A stretch of 64,000 nt of DNA, from NCBI GenBank assembly GCA_945865815.1, contig CAMBFR010000008.1, positions 1 to 64,000 of the forward strand, read 5' to 3'. The notes beneath the pieces were generated by a model. It was given only the letters and a program-made list of their open reading frames with translations, ran no database searches and had not been told where the DNA came from. Positions 46,686 through 52,974 of the stretch are shown piece by piece (position 1 is the stretch's first letter; every line of letters starts with the position of its first letter). Origin of the DNA: Candidatus Sulfopaludibacter sp. SbA3 (GTDB lineage Bacteria > Acidobacteriota > Terriglobia > 20CM-2-55-15). Both the position numbers and the translations under genes were made by a program.

Positions 46686-46731
46686 AAACTCCAACAGGAA
46701 CTCTTCTTTTTGAACTTTGCACGGGGCTGAA

Positions 46732-48251
46732 GAGCCTGTCCGAGTAATGGAAGGGACCGGAGTTGGTCAAGAAGTGGGTAAAACGGAAGGCATGAGCAAA
46801 ACATTTCGAGAATGGAATGTCGAACAGCCGACGATGTTTCCAGCGGCTGTGCTGGATTGGGTGCCGACGGAGCACTTGGCCCATTTCATAAGAAATCTGG
46901 TTCTAGAGCAGCTGAATCTGTCGAAGATTGTGAGTGCCTACAGCGAGGATAGAGGGTATCCGCCCTATCATCCGGCGATGATGACGGCAGTAATACTGTA
47001 TGCGTATAGCCAAGGCATTTATGCCTCGCGACGGATCGCGAAAGCTTGTGAGCAGCGAGTGGATTTCATGGCGATCACGGGGATGCAACAGCCGGACTTT
47101 CGAACGATCAACGATTTTCGGAAGCGACATATCGGGGCATTGGGGGAGATGTTCGGGCAAGTATTGAAACTTTGCCAGAAGGCGGGAATGGTGAAGTTGG
47201 CGCACGTGGCATTGGATGGGACACGGATAGCGGGCAACGCATCGAAGGCACAGACGATGAAGTACGAGCGGATGAAAAAGAGCGAACAGGAACTGGCCGA
47301 AGAAGTGGCCGGATGGTTCCGAGAAGCCGAACGTCAGGATGCTGAAGAGGACGCCCAATACGGGGCAGACCGACGGGGCGATGAATTGCCGGACTGGGTT
47401 GCGGATAAGCAGAAGCGATTGGAAAAGATCCGTCAGGCGAAGGCGGAGTTGGAAGCCGAAGCCCAGGCCGAGGCGGAGCAGAAGAAGGCCGAGGACCAGA
47501 ACAAGCCCGCCCCGAACCGGGTGCGGAACCCGATTCCCGACGAGCCACCGGATGGGGCCAAGCGGAATCTCACCGACGGCGATAGCCGATTATTGAAAAC
47601 AGCGAATGGCTACGTTCAAGGCTACAACGCACAAGCGGCCGTGGACGGAGACAGTCAAGTCATCGTGGCGCAAATGGTGACCAACGAGCGCAATGATTTG
47701 AAACATTTAATTCCAGTCGTGGAGCAGATTGAGGCCAACACGGAAGATAGCGTCAGGGAAATTTCAGCCGACAGCGGCTATTACTCGGAACAGAATCTGG
47801 AACAACTGGAGCAGAGAGCGGTCCGGGTCTACATGGCAACCGGGGGCCGAAACAAGGACGGCTCCTGGCGCGGCACGGTGGGACCCTTAGGACAACAGAT
47901 GCGGTCGCGCATTACGAGAGGCCGAAAGCGATCCCGGTATCGGCTTCGAGCGCAGACGGTGGAGCCGGTTTTTGGAATCATCAAAAGCGCCCGGGGATTC
48001 CGGCAGTTTCTCCTGCGCGGCATGAATAAAGTTCGCGGGGAATGGAGCCTGCTGTGTACCGTCCATAATATTTTGAAGTTGGCCCACCAGATGGGATGAA
48101 ATCCGGACCTGACAAGGTCCCTTTGAACCTTGCCGAGGTGGTTTCATCCGCATTCGGTTCGGCAATCCGAGATTCTTAGGCGCAGGACCACGCGCTCCAC
48201 ACAGCGAGAGTGCAGCCGCCGCGGCGTGGGATCCATTACTCGGACAGGCTC
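46732..48251 (+). mobile_element. IS1182-type insertion sequence, complete
   Basis: A 1520-bp element is bounded by perfect 20-bp inverted repeats, 46732-46751 and 48232-48251. The flanking TGAA (46728-46731 and 48252-48255) is a 4-bp target duplication. The single transposase gene is intact. The target is the loop of the GGGGC-TGAA-GCCCC palindrome. The perfect ends and open gene suggest a recent insertion. Confidence 0.93.
46792..48099 (+). CDS. IS1182-family transposase
   Basis: This 435-residue protein has an N-terminal DUF772-like region (about 20-110) and a DDE domain. Candidate catalytic residues are Asp142 in ALDGTRI, Asp327 in SADSGYYSE and Glu391 in VEPVFGIIK. A long charged, Glu/Lys-rich insert lies at about 160-255. 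ATG 46792 has a GGAAGG site upstream; an ATG within the left inverted repeat (46747) is an alternative. The gene has no disruption. Confidence 0.92.
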   Translation: MSKTFREWNVEQPTMFPAAVLDWVPTEHLAHFIRNLVLEQLNLSKIVSAYSEDRGYPPYHPAMMTAVILYAYSQGIYASRRIAKACEQRVDFMAITGMQQPDFRTINDFRKRHIGALGEMFGQVLKLCQKAGMVKLAHVALDGTRIAGNASKAQTMKYERMKKSEQELAEEVAGWFREAERQDAEEDAQYGADRRGDELPDWVADKQKRLEKIRQAKAELEAEAQAEAEQKKAEDQNKPAPNRVRNPIPDEPPDGAKRNLTDGDSRLLKTANGYVQGYNAQAAVDGDSQVIVAQMVTNERNDLKHLIPVVEQIEANTEDSVREISADSGYYSEQNLEQLEQRAVRVYMATGGRNKDGSWRGTVGPLGQQMRSRITRGRKRSRYRLRAQTVEPVFGIIKSARGFRQFLLRGMNKVRGEWSLLCTVHNILKLAHQMG

Positions 48252-48496: not shown

Positions 48497-48973
48497 TTAG
48501 GCCGTCGGCCTGTTCTTTTCGAGGATCTCAAGAACCTGCGCTTTCCACTTATGGAAGGGGTGGTCGGGATCGTCACTAGGCCACTTCGCTTCCTGCATAT
48601 CTTTCTGGCAACTTCCACATTTCTTCGACGACGTATCCCACGGCACTTTCCAATCGTAAACTCCGAAGAGTCCTTGCGGACTGCACGATGGGCACGTGAC
48701 CATGACCCAGCGATATGGTTTCTCTCCGCTCGTCTCGTATGCGTACCCGGTCAGCTCCTGAGCAAAACCACAGAACTTGCATACACGGTACTTACGGTTT
48801 ACGTCAGCGCGTGGCTCAAATCGAGGACTGTAAAAGCCGATAGTCTTGCAGTTGGGACACGGCAGAAGGCCACCGAACGCGAAGTAGCTGTTGCCAGTCC
48901 AGAATGCCGGCGCAGGATTTGCTTTGTCGAAATCCGTTTCCTGCTGCCACGTCTGCTCGGTGTATTCGCTCAT
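48497..48973 (-). CDS. Zinc-ribbon-rich protein of unknown function
   Basis: This 158-residue protein has four CxxC pairs: Cys39/42, Cys65/68, Cys94/97 and Cys119/122, consistent with two zinc ribbons. I do not recognise a family. It lies 22 nt downstream of the HNH gene on the same strand, so the two are probably one operon in the accessory island. The 240-nt gap to the insertion sequence shows nothing else. Confidence 0.65.
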   Translation of the reverse strand: MSEYTEQTWQQETDFDKANPAPAFWTGNSYFAFGGLLPCPNCKTIGFYSPRFEPRADVNRKYRVCKFCGFAQELTGYAYETSGEKPYRWVMVTCPSCSPQGLFGVYDWKVPWDTSSKKCGSCQKDMQEAKWPSDDPDHPFHKWKAQVLEILEKNRPTA

Positions 48974-48995: not shown

Positions 48996-49811
48996 TCAGT
49001 CCTTATACTCCCTCAGGTATGGCCGAATCCGCATCGTAGGTTTATCGGGCGGCTCGATTCCTTCGGGCCGCTTGTAGAGGTGCTTCGCTTTTTCGAGTTC
49101 TTCGTGTAGGTCGATCAAGACGCTGAAGCGCAAAGCTCCCCAGATGGTGATCCAGTAGCGAACGACCTTCGGAGTTTCGGCGGCGAAGATCCGCTTAATT
49201 TGGCAGCCCGGACCGAAATCGATGCTCTTCACTCCAGTCACCATGGCTTCCGGGAAAACTACTTCTGCGTTCGCGATAAACGTGCAAACGGTGTACGGAG
49301 GTTCAACGAATCTATTGTTGATGCGGTACTCGCAGCCGCGGACGATCTTCTCCGCCATCAGTGACAATCCCGCGTAGGGAATCAGAATCGATCGCGGTGA
49401 TTCGACACCTTCAGGCGGCCCGAGGCCCGGTATCTTTCCGGGTTTGTCCTCAAGTTCTTCGGTCCGAACCAACTCCGAGCGGATCTTTTTGAGCGTCGCT
49501 TCGCGACGCCGTTTCTCTTCGTCCGAGAGTCCCTCTGCATCGAGCCCCATGGTCCGCAGCGCCTTCGCCGCGAGACCAGCCGCCGCGTCGGACTTCGAGT
49601 CTACGCAAAAGATCATCCTGAGAAAGAGGTCGTGTTCGAGCTGCCCGAATGCGCGATTGCATTTCGGACAGCTCGGCGCGGTCCACCGCTGGACAGTCTT
49701 AGGCGTCGTATCCGGATACCAGGACTTCGGGAACACATGATCCAGTTCTGGAGAGTCAGTCTCGCTCAGGCAATGGATGCATCGTGCGAGGGCAACGGCT
49801 GTTTGAGACAT
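48996..49811 (-). CDS. HNH-endonuclease-like protein
   Basis: This 271-residue protein has an N-terminal HNH-type zinc finger: Cys11/14, then LDHVFPKSW (Asp24-His25) and Cys48/51 followed by Asn52 in CPKCNRAFG. The remaining 200 residues are unrecognised. The start was set at ATG 49811 because the long upstream frame extends into the gap with no family sequence. It is probably a nuclease of a defence island. Confidence 0.75.
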   Translation of the reverse strand: MSQTAVALARCIHCLSETDSPELDHVFPKSWYPDTTPKTVQRWTAPSCPKCNRAFGQLEHDLFLRMIFCVDSKSDAAAGLAAKALRTMGLDAEGLSDEEKRRREATLKKIRSELVRTEELEDKPGKIPGLGPPEGVESPRSILIPYAGLSLMAEKIVRGCEYRINNRFVEPPYTVCTFIANAEVVFPEAMVTGVKSIDFGPGCQIKRIFAAETPKVVRYWITIWGALRFSVLIDLHEELEKAKHLYKRPEGIEPPDKPTMRIRPYLREYKD

Positions 49812-50041
49812 ATCGGTTAATTTCCGGCATCTATTTTCCGACTCGCTCAGACAGGAAATCAACAGCGTTTCAAGGGGAGTAAATTTTCGTTTCTCAGGAC
49901 CACTTCTGTCCTTCAGCGTGCCTATAAAATAAATAGTTCTGAATCTCGGAATCGCGCAGAACTTGCAGTCGCGCCGCTCGACCGGCCTACCTCTGACAGG
50001 ATGTTCTCCAAGCACGCTCTGAAAAGATTAAGGAAATTTCC

Positions 50042-50158
50042 ATGGCTACGAAAGACGCGCGCAGCGCGAAAACAGGTCAGTACGTTAAACCGGGCTATGC
50101 CAAAACCCACAAAAGCACAACCGTGGTAGAAACAAGACCGGCACCCAAAAAGAAGTAG
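50042..50158 (+). CDS. 38-residue basic small protein
   Basis: This short gene encodes KDARSAKTGQYVKPGYAKTH and ends in a Lys-rich tail, a pattern that I recall as a recurrent small conserved protein. It has an AAGGA ribosome-binding site and is followed by a clear terminator, which together support a real gene. Function is unknown. Confidence 0.6.
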   Translation: MATKDARSAKTGQYVKPGYAKTHKSTTVVETRPAPKKK

Positions 50159-50336: not shown

Positions 50337-51476
50337 ATGATTGCCGAACGTGAAGTAACGACACTTCTGCCGGTCTCGCACGCAAAACCGAAAGCTGTCT
50401 CTCTTTTCTCCGGGGGCGGAGGAATGGATCTCGGCGTGTCAGATGCCGGTTTCGAAGTTCTTGTCAGTATCGAGCGCGATCCGCACTGCTGTGAAACGCT
50501 GCGCTCTCGGGTTGAGCAGTGCAATTCCACTACGCAAATTATGGAGCAAGATATCCGTGAGGTTGACCCGAATATCTTGCGCGAAAGTTTGGGCCTCGAT
50601 CCAGGCGATTTAGATCTCCTCTTCGGGGGCCCTCCCTGTCAGGCTTTCTCTCAAATCGGAAAGCGGTTGAGCCTCGACGACGAGCGGGGCATGTTGCTCT
50701 TCGAAATGGTTCGCTTTGCCGAAACCTTCCGGCCGAGAGCGATTCTGATCGAACAGGTGAAGGGATTGCTGAACGCCCCGGACGAAGGCGGTGTTCCCGG
50801 TAGCGTGCTCTCTGAACTTATGGGAAGGATGAAAAAGTTGGGTTATACACCAACCCTTCAGGTCATCAACTCGGCAGACTACGGCGTTCCTCAATTTCGA
50901 AAGCGGGTGTTCATCGTAGCTACCCGAGGGAAAAAGCGATTTGAGTTTCCTCGTCCGACGCACGGAATTCCTGAAGCCCTTCCTCTACTTGGTATACAAC
51001 CGTATGTGACCGTAGGCGATGTTCTCAAGGGACTCACCCGCCCTGCCTATCGGAAAGAATCGGCGATCCCAAATCACATTGACGTTACGCCCGACCGTGA
51101 CCGGGGACGAATCCAGGGCGTACCGGAGGGCTCTCACTTGGCTAAGGAGCTGCATCTTCCGGTCGAACAGCGTTGCCGATTGGGGAAGAAGGACACTACG
51201 AAATACCGACGGCTCTCTCGAAGCGAGCCATCGTTGACTCTTCGATGCGGGGAAATCTTTTTTCACCCGACGCTGGACAGGTATCTCACGCCGCGCGAGT
51301 ATCTCCGCATTCACGGGTATCCCGACGACTATTTGTTGAAGGGGCCCGTTCGAAGCAGGTCTGGCACGGTTCGCAATTTGGATCAGCATCGCCAAGTCGC
51401 GAATTCGGTTCCTCCGCCAGTCGCCAAAGTTCTGGCGGAATCCATACGGGAGTTCTTGCGTGCCGAGGCTCTTTGA
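50337..51476 (+). CDS. DNA cytosine-5 methyltransferase
   Basis: This 379-residue protein has C5-methyltransferase motif I SLFSGGGGMDLG (22-33), motif IV GGPPCQAFSQIG with catalytic Cys101, and motif X VANSVPPPVAKV. Motif VI, usually ENV, reads EQV at 139-141. It should protect DNA from the following endonuclease. AGGAAGG precedes ATG 50337. Its 3' end overlaps the endonuclease start by 17 nt, an RM-operon layout. The target sequence is unknown. Confidence 0.93.
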   Translation: MIAEREVTTLLPVSHAKPKAVSLFSGGGGMDLGVSDAGFEVLVSIERDPHCCETLRSRVEQCNSTTQIMEQDIREVDPNILRESLGLDPGDLDLLFGGPPCQAFSQIGKRLSLDDERGMLLFEMVRFAETFRPRAILIEQVKGLLNAPDEGGVPGSVLSELMGRMKKLGYTPTLQVINSADYGVPQFRKRVFIVATRGKKRFEFPRPTHGIPEALPLLGIQPYVTVGDVLKGLTRPAYRKESAIPNHIDVTPDRDRGRIQGVPEGSHLAKELHLPVEQRCRLGKKDTTKYRRLSRSEPSLTLRCGEIFFHPTLDRYLTPREYLRIHGYPDDYLLKGPVRSRSGTVRNLDQHRQVANSVPPPVAKVLAESIREFLRAEAL

Positions 51477-52563
51477 GGTTTTTGGCTTCCGTCTTTCTGA
51501 CAAGTCGGCGGAAGCCAACTCGCACCGCCTGAATGCTCGGTGCCCATTCATGGGCCAAGATTGCGACGGCGGAGGCAACCGGTATCTTTCCTCAGTCAAC
51601 TTCACGACGAACGCCGCTCTTCAGAGACTCTTCAAAGGCCGGGAAGGTGTTCCCGCCGGAGTTTGCTCCATTCAAATGACTCTGGATGGACCGCCGTGGA
51701 TTGTATGTCCTCGAAGGCTTCTCGTTCTCGGCAGACAAGCTGACGACTCTCGCGTGTATCAGCGCAAGTCCGAAGAGCATGTGCTCTCGCTACTGGAATA
51801 CAAGAAGGGCACGAGACTCGGTGTTTGGCCCGAGGTCAAGATGAAGTACACCGGGACGGTGAACGGCCTTCAGAAGTCTTTCGACTACACGTTCGATTAC
51901 GTCGTGATGCCAGTGGGTCGGGCAAGCGACGAACAGATAGCGGAGGCGACGGGGAAGACGTGGTCCGAGATGCGGACGGTCATGCGGCGGTCCGGCTACC
52001 AGATCTCCGAGGAGGGTACTCATCAGTATGTCGAAGACGGTCCGATCGGCATTCCGCACGTCATCGAGATCATGACGTCCAGCACATCGGGCGGCAACAA
52101 GACGAAAAGGACCACGATTCCAATGGCGTTCGAAGACGCGGTTCTCGGGCGTCCGCATGCGGCTCCTGGAATCAACTATCGCCAAGTGTGGGCGAGGATG
52201 GTGAGCCAACTCATCGTCAAATCGGAGATCACTCTCGCATGGGGTGGAAAAACGCTCTGGATCGTTCAGGACGTCCTTGTCGATTACATCACGAGCTCGA
52301 CCGCGCTCAATATCCGCGACTTCCTTGCGAAACGAACGTCGGAAGTGAACATGCTTAGTTTTTCCTACGGCAAGAAGGTCGGCGCGCCGGACGGCGTAAT
52401 CGAACTGAGCGATGAAAGGCTGTATTCCGGTCCGATGGGATCGGGCAAGCGGGAGAAGCCGAGCTTTAAGGACATGATCCGCGCTCCGATTTGCCCGCCC
52501 CTCTCCCGTCTTGTTCTATTGTTGTCCAGGCGAACTCCATCAACTATTCTCATCGCTCCGTAG
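51460..52563 (+). CDS. NotI-family type II restriction endonuclease
   Basis: This 367-residue protein resembles NotI. Its N-terminal metal-binding cysteines Cys28 (RCPF), Cys35, Cys69 (GVCS) and Cys83 (IVCP) match the iron-binding fold of that enzyme in order. The FDYTFDYVV region gives candidate Asp146 and the VIEIMTSS segment gives Glu203. NotI has Gln two residues after this Glu; here it is Met205. The partner methyltransferase is just upstream and Vsr just downstream. The recognition site is not known, but NotI relatives cut rare GC-rich sites. Confidence 0.82.
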   Translation: MPRLFEVFGFRLSDKSAEANSHRLNARCPFMGQDCDGGGNRYLSSVNFTTNAALQRLFKGREGVPAGVCSIQMTLDGPPWIVCPRRLLVLGRQADDSRVYQRKSEEHVLSLLEYKKGTRLGVWPEVKMKYTGTVNGLQKSFDYTFDYVVMPVGRASDEQIAEATGKTWSEMRTVMRRSGYQISEEGTHQYVEDGPIGIPHVIEIMTSSTSGGNKTKRTTIPMAFEDAVLGRPHAAPGINYRQVWARMVSQLIVKSEITLAWGGKTLWIVQDVLVDYITSSTALNIRDFLAKRTSEVNMLSFSYGKKVGAPDGVIELSDERLYSGPMGSGKREKPSFKDMIRAPICPPLSRLVLLLSRRTPSTILIAP

Positions 52564-52569
52564 GTTCAC

Positions 52570-52974
52570 ATGGACAACGTAGACGCTGCAACGCGGTCCG
52601 CGGTAATGGCGAAGGTCCGTTCTCGCGGCAACCGTTCCACTGAAAGCAGGCTTCGCGCGTATCTCGTCCGGACCGGTGTGTCGGGTTGGATTCTCCACTC
52701 TTCGAAAGTGCTCGGCTGTCCAGACTTCATCTTTCGAGATCCGCGCGTCGCCGTTTTCGTGGATGGGTGCTTCTGGCACGGTTGCCCTGATTGTTTGCGG
52801 CTCCCGAAATCGAACGCAGAGTACTGGCGTCGCAAGGTCTCTGGAAACCAAGCCCGCGACCGGGCCGTAACCACACAGTTGCGTCAGCAAGGATGGCGGG
52901 TCCTCCGGTTTTGGGAGCACGACGTAAAAGCTAGACCTTTGAAAGTGCTTAGGAAGATCCTTCGCTGCGTTTGA
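52570..52974 (+). CDS. vsr: Very short patch repair endonuclease Vsr
   Basis: This 134-residue protein is Vsr, which nicks T:G mismatches arising by deamination of 5-methylcytosine. SAVMAKVRSRGNRSTESRLR, VFVDGCFWHGCPDC and GWRVLRFWEHDV are the family segments. It starts 6 nt after the endonuclease stop. Its presence implies that the methyltransferase makes 5-methylcytosine. Confidence 0.93.
   Translation: MDNVDAATRSAVMAKVRSRGNRSTESRLRAYLVRTGVSGWILHSSKVLGCPDFIFRDPRVAVFVDGCFWHGCPDCLRLPKSNAEYWRRKVSGNQARDRAVTTQLRQQGWRVLRFWEHDVKARPLKVLRKILRCV

Follow-up and report, generated by a model that had tools for sequence, protein, structure and literature searches.

Described systems

In Type II restriction-modification (R-M) systems a methyltransferase marks the host DNA and an endonuclease cuts DNA that is not marked; Vsr enzymes repair the T:G mismatches that arise by deamination of 5-methylcytosine (m5C). 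NotI, from Nocardia otitidis-caviarum (GC^GGCCGC; structures 3bvq and 3c25), is a Type II endonuclease of the PD-(D/E)XK kind with a Cys4 metal fold, and NotI isoschizomers recognize the 8-bp site GCGGCCGC. Most PD-(D/E)XK enzymes have a lysine where NotI has a glutamine, and whether this residue acts as a general base or supports the transition state is still argued. Replacement of the lysine is compatible with activity in BglII, BamHI and MspI (Q, E, N); E, Q and N are the replacements named for this position in PMC4081073, where methionine is not listed. The roles assigned below to NotI residues are based on the same paper and on general knowledge. A vsr gene is found downstream of a C5 methyltransferase gene in the Dcm-Vsr pair of E. 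coli and with the Neisseria enzymes V.NgoAXIII and V.Nme18VIP, as it is at the locus described here, whereas Dcm is not accompanied by the gene of a cognate endonuclease in such an arrangement.

Organization of the locus

We have analyzed a stretch of 64,000 nucleotides (the window), in which an ORF check gave three genes of the same orientation, a C5 methylase (M), a NotI-like endonuclease (R) and a Vsr (V):

50337-51476, plus strand: C5-cytosine DNA methyltransferase M; ATG start, 379 aa; PF00145, TIGR00675
51460-52563, plus strand: NotI-type endonuclease R; GTG start, 367 aa; hhalign to PF12183 members, fold of a relative
52570-52974, plus strand: Vsr-type very-short-patch mismatch endonuclease V; ATG start, 134 aa; PF03852, TIGR00632, PDB 1cw0

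M and R overlap by 17 nt and V starts 6 nt past the stop codon of R, so that the sequence-only reading, in which the three genes overlap or nearly touch, was exact in its coordinates. Its description of the locus as an R-M unit with a NotI-type endonuclease and a Vsr also holds, by Pfam matches for M and V and, for R, by hhalign and the predicted fold of a relative (L043).

M matches the DNA_methylase family of Pfam (PF00145, E 1.9e-57) and TIGR00675 of NCBIfam (E 9.7e-54), as well as HaeIII and Dnmt1 in the PDB. Its motifs are intact: FSGGGGMDLG (I), PPCQ (IV), EQV (VI, usually ENV), QxRxR (VIII) and ANSVPPP (X). V matches PF03852 (Pfam, E 1.2e-17) and TIGR00632 (NCBIfam, 7.8e-33; 113 bits, above the cut-off of 97.85) and aligns with E. 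coli Vsr (PDB 1cw0, E 4.4e-18). It keeps the counterparts of E25, D51, H69 and D97 of the E. coli enzyme and has an Asp at the position of H64, a replacement shared with the functional Neisseria enzymes V.NgoAXIII and V.Nme18VIP (PMC12907096, from which the residue roles in Vsr are also taken).

Directly upstream of the three genes, on the opposite strand, lies an ORF for a 339-aa protein (48996-50015, minus strand) with weak similarity to HNH_5 and to PtuB/PDC-M01B; it is perhaps another defence gene. Next to it is encoded a Cys-rich protein of 158 aa that matches zinc ribbons weakly (48497-48973, minus strand). A 38-aa ORF (50042-50158; MATKDARSAKTGQYVKPGYAKTHKSTTVVETRPAPKKK) with no Pfam match is found upstream of the methylase gene. 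An IS1182-family transposase (46717-48099; NF033551, 7e-106) is encoded near the unit, and the flanks show little synteny; together these suggest that the unit sits in a mobile region. Comparison with empty sites in the family gave only scattered right-flank matches, so no insertion boundary was drawn.

Kinship of R with NotI

R itself matches no Pfam or NCBIfam model and no PDB sequence, by phmmer or by profile, and has no direct sequence match to NotI; PADLOC returned a weak match to a Type II restriction enzyme (2e-6). The NotI family model PF12183 (gathering cut-off 22 bits) finds none of six members of the clade to which R belongs at a threshold as loose as E 10, and none of four more at E 1. 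This model is narrow, since it also gives no score to a true NotI homologue (3bvq, 9e-67) from the same class as the window (L083:1216-2340, minus strand), whose gene lies next to that of a methylase of the N4/N6 type. The bridge to NotI was provided by curated NotI-family proteins of PF12183 from related genomes. A profile of 13 clade members aligned by hhalign with nine of these at a probability of 98.7% (E 2.2e-16), and the same nine aligned with NotI, whose sequence was confirmed as PDB 3bvq, at 96.6% (E 6.7e-10). The profile search that had been proposed against NotI thus finds nothing directly and succeeds by way of the curated family members.

The four N-terminal cysteines had been read as lying in the NotI order, and this stands. 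C28, C35, C69 and C83 of R follow the pattern CPF..C..GxCS..CPxR, correspond to C42, C55, C65 and C81 of NotI, and are invariant in the clade and in all NotI-type sequences aligned.

Structure prediction, likewise proposed earlier, also supports the kinship through a relative. The AlphaFold model of R (pLDDT 89.2, pTM 0.89) gave no Foldseek match at all, NotI included. The AlphaFold (AF2) model of L043 (pLDDT 89.4), a compact clade member 45% identical to R, had NotI as its best match in the PDB and the only one below 1e-3 (3c25/3bvq, E 3e-9 to 6e-7, with 3c25 at E 3e-9; prob 1.00; TM 0.50-0.54 to the NotI chains), and the next match was at E 0.024. L043 is without an extra insert of ~45 aa that is present in R (about 155-200) and may be behind the failed search with the model of R. 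Given that R and L043 share 45% identity and can be aligned across the core, we take the missing match to reflect a limitation of the search, and the NotI fold of R is thus seen through its close relative L043 only. On the basis of its relatives, the alignment with curated NotI-family members and the L043 model, R is kin of NotI.

The PF12183 proteins compared here (L007-L015, L037-L040, L078-L082) are homologous to R across the core, with the four Cys and the E, D, E, G, Q and K positions invariant or nearly so. They differ from the clade of R in the active-site motif described below and in that most adjoin D12-class (Dam-like) or N4/N6 methylase genes. Adenine methylase genes of the D12 class (Dam-like, SPFRYPGGK), not C5 genes, lie beside L007-L012, L037, L038, L040, L078, L081 and L082.

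Distribution of the clade

Relatives of R, about 32-57% identical to it, were found among genome contigs and whole genomes of Cyanobacteriota (Phormidium and others), Nitrospirota, Chloroflexota and Gammaproteobacteria. Only one of 297 Acidobacteriota-side genomes, the window's own, carries R, and relatives occur in 5 of 339 genomes of the phylum of Phormidium; 43 genomes of the Parabeggiatoa family held none besides the seed. R-M units commonly show such a scattered distribution. Searches for R in plasmids and phages (tblastn) and scans of viral contigs found nothing. Two cyanobacterial genomes classed as separate species (L024 and L025) encode an identical endonuclease sequence.

The active site and Met205

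In the common alignment E125, D146, E203, Q250 and K254 of R correspond to E145, D160, E182, Q241 and K245 of NotI; Q250 and K254 are located on the following helix. The catalytic Gln184 of NotI (E-x-Q) is not kept in R. As the sequence-only reading had claimed, Met205 stands at this position: it aligned with Gln184 in every alignment made (MAFFT, hhalign), and none placed another residue there. It is quite unlikely that this register is wrong and that the true catalytic residue lies close by in an ordinary active site. Migration of the lysine is known in PD-(D/E)XK enzymes, and both K254 and polar residues specific to the clade lie close by, but the register is the same by MAFFT, by hhalign and as judged from the conserved E203 and G211, and strand 200-204 of the R model ends next to Met205.

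The methionine is not peculiar to the window. The motif is E-x-M (E-[IVN]-M-T) in 13 of 13 clade members and E-x-Q in all 19 other NotI-type proteins examined, NotI and the PF12183 proteins included. A maximum-likelihood tree places the E-x-M group on one side of a branch with support of 100/99, which is present in all 200 bootstrap trees. The claim made for Met205 is therefore stronger than when it was put forward, since the methionine is a clade-wide trait. Judged from the alignments and the tree, Met205 is an old, fixed, shared derived feature of a multi-phylum E-x-M clade, and a crippling local mutation is for that reason very unlikely. By the same comparisons R belongs to a previously undetected NotI-type clade with a new active-site signature; the unit itself is of a known kind. 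A literature search of limited scope returned nothing useful about either a named NotI family or a methionine in place of Gln184, and we know of no characterised member of the E-x-M clade.

An alignment of 11 clade members, which are 32-56% identical to R, has 281 columns without gaps; 53 of these are invariant, among them all ten Cys and active-site positions (C28, C35, C69, C83, E125, D146, E203, M205, Q250 and K254). As judged from this alignment, the invariance of the set is far beyond chance. It bears on the possibility that R has lost its nuclease activity through Met205 and is retained as a partner of M that binds DNA or has a regulatory role, leaving in effect a solitary methylase with a Vsr. 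Methionine has neither the chemistry of lysine nor that of glutamine and cannot substitute for it, so R could be slow or inactive, and the residues reported at this position are K, E, Q and N, not M (PMC4081073). Some loci are moreover decaying: frameshifted or otherwise decayed copies of the unit were found at L005:5563-6960 (Q/K helix deleted), L006:86-977 (stops) and L004:5974 (N-terminal frame break). Loss of catalysis should, however, free the metal-binding acids to change, and E125, D146, E203, Q250, K254 and the four Cys are invariant in 11 diverged members; the methionine is also ancestral to the clade, and is thus no sign of late decay. We consider an inactive R unlikely. A methionine that is fixed in a clade with strict conservation of the metal-binding acids, the four Cys and the helix of Q250 and K254 is in keeping with selection on a functional enzyme, and speaks against a simple loss of activity.

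Co-inheritance of M and R

All 11 R genes compared adjoin the same type of C5 methyltransferase gene. The two genes overlap by 8-34 nt in most clade loci, and in L026 and L027 R follows after about 30 nt. The distances of M and R are correlated over the 11 pairs (Mantel r 0.65, p 0.0007). The trees of M and R are for the most part in agreement and contain the same pairs, for example the cyanobacterial L024 and the Nitrospirota-side L046 as sisters. The correlation and the common pairs point to a pair of genes that travels as a unit between phyla. Adjacency and co-inheritance of M and R, as in Type II R-M systems, were found in 11 of 11 pairs.

These results speak against the idea that R is not a classical cutter of unmethylated sites working with M but a nickase, or a nuclease that is directed by methylation or altered in some other way. 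A changed active-site residue could alter strand or metal use. On the other hand, M-R pairs that act on the same site typically overlap tightly and are inherited together, as R is with its intact C5 methyltransferase, and a methylation-dependent nuclease encoded next to its own methylase would kill its host; we regard the idea as highly improbable.

Vsr is the third gene in four clade loci (the window, L004, L036 and L043). The same order of C5 methyltransferase, NotI-like endonuclease and Vsr, with the same three activities, is found at an acidobacterial locus outside the clade (L080:272-2818). The endonuclease of L080 differs in having E-x-Q and falls, together with that of L039, in another NotI branch, so the three-gene arrangement arose or spread more than once.

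Target site

M shares 48-61% identity with the methyltransferases that adjoin the other clade members, and its target-recognition region (about 247-311) is unusually conserved among them. This conservation suggests that the clade systems may recognise a shared or similar DNA site. Comparison with characterised methylases was considered, and dropped, as a way to the specificity of M: no close characterised methylase was found, and among the plasmid and phage matches listed all identities were at or below about 35%, from which the specificity cannot be deduced. Palindrome avoidance in 464 kb of the host genome gave no clear signal pointing to the target. The earlier hint of an 8-bp site finds no support in any of these data: the NotI site is not avoided, with 52 occurrences seen and 50 expected (1.04), a count that is neutral since host sites would be methylated. 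In the same 464 kb GGCC is mildly low (0.90), as is CGGCCG (0.90).

A model for the unit

The reading that we prefer, at a probability of roughly 80%, is that the window carries a Type II R-M unit of the NotI kind with a Vsr, in which another residue of R does the work of the Gln or Lys. M would convert a cytosine to m5C within a specific site on host DNA, and R, a NotI-fold PD-(D/E)XK enzyme with a Cys4 metal fold, would cut the same site where it lacks the methyl mark, for example on phage or plasmid DNA that enters the cell. V would nick T:G mismatches arising from deamination of m5C and so limit the mutational cost of M. The metal site of R would be formed by E125, D146 and E203. The water-orienting or transition-state role of the residue at Met205 has probably moved to another invariant side chain. 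Candidates are K254 on the following helix, which is common to NotI, and T206, S208 and T209, or R241 and Q242, all of them invariant in the clade. The unit is probably working; we infer the cutting activity, the site common to M and R, and the compensating residue from the comparisons above. The chances seem to us evenly balanced for the wider proposition that there is a widespread clade of active endonucleases that cut with a PD...E-x-M centre, have the work of the Lys or Gln done elsewhere, and have a target site of their own.

A natural clade in which the methionine is fixed and all else is kept would be a ready test of the role of the Lys or Gln in PD-(D/E)XK enzymes. The E-x-M clade is also a possible source of new NotI-type site specificities that are missed by Pfam, and Vsr appears to have joined NotI-type units in at least two branches.
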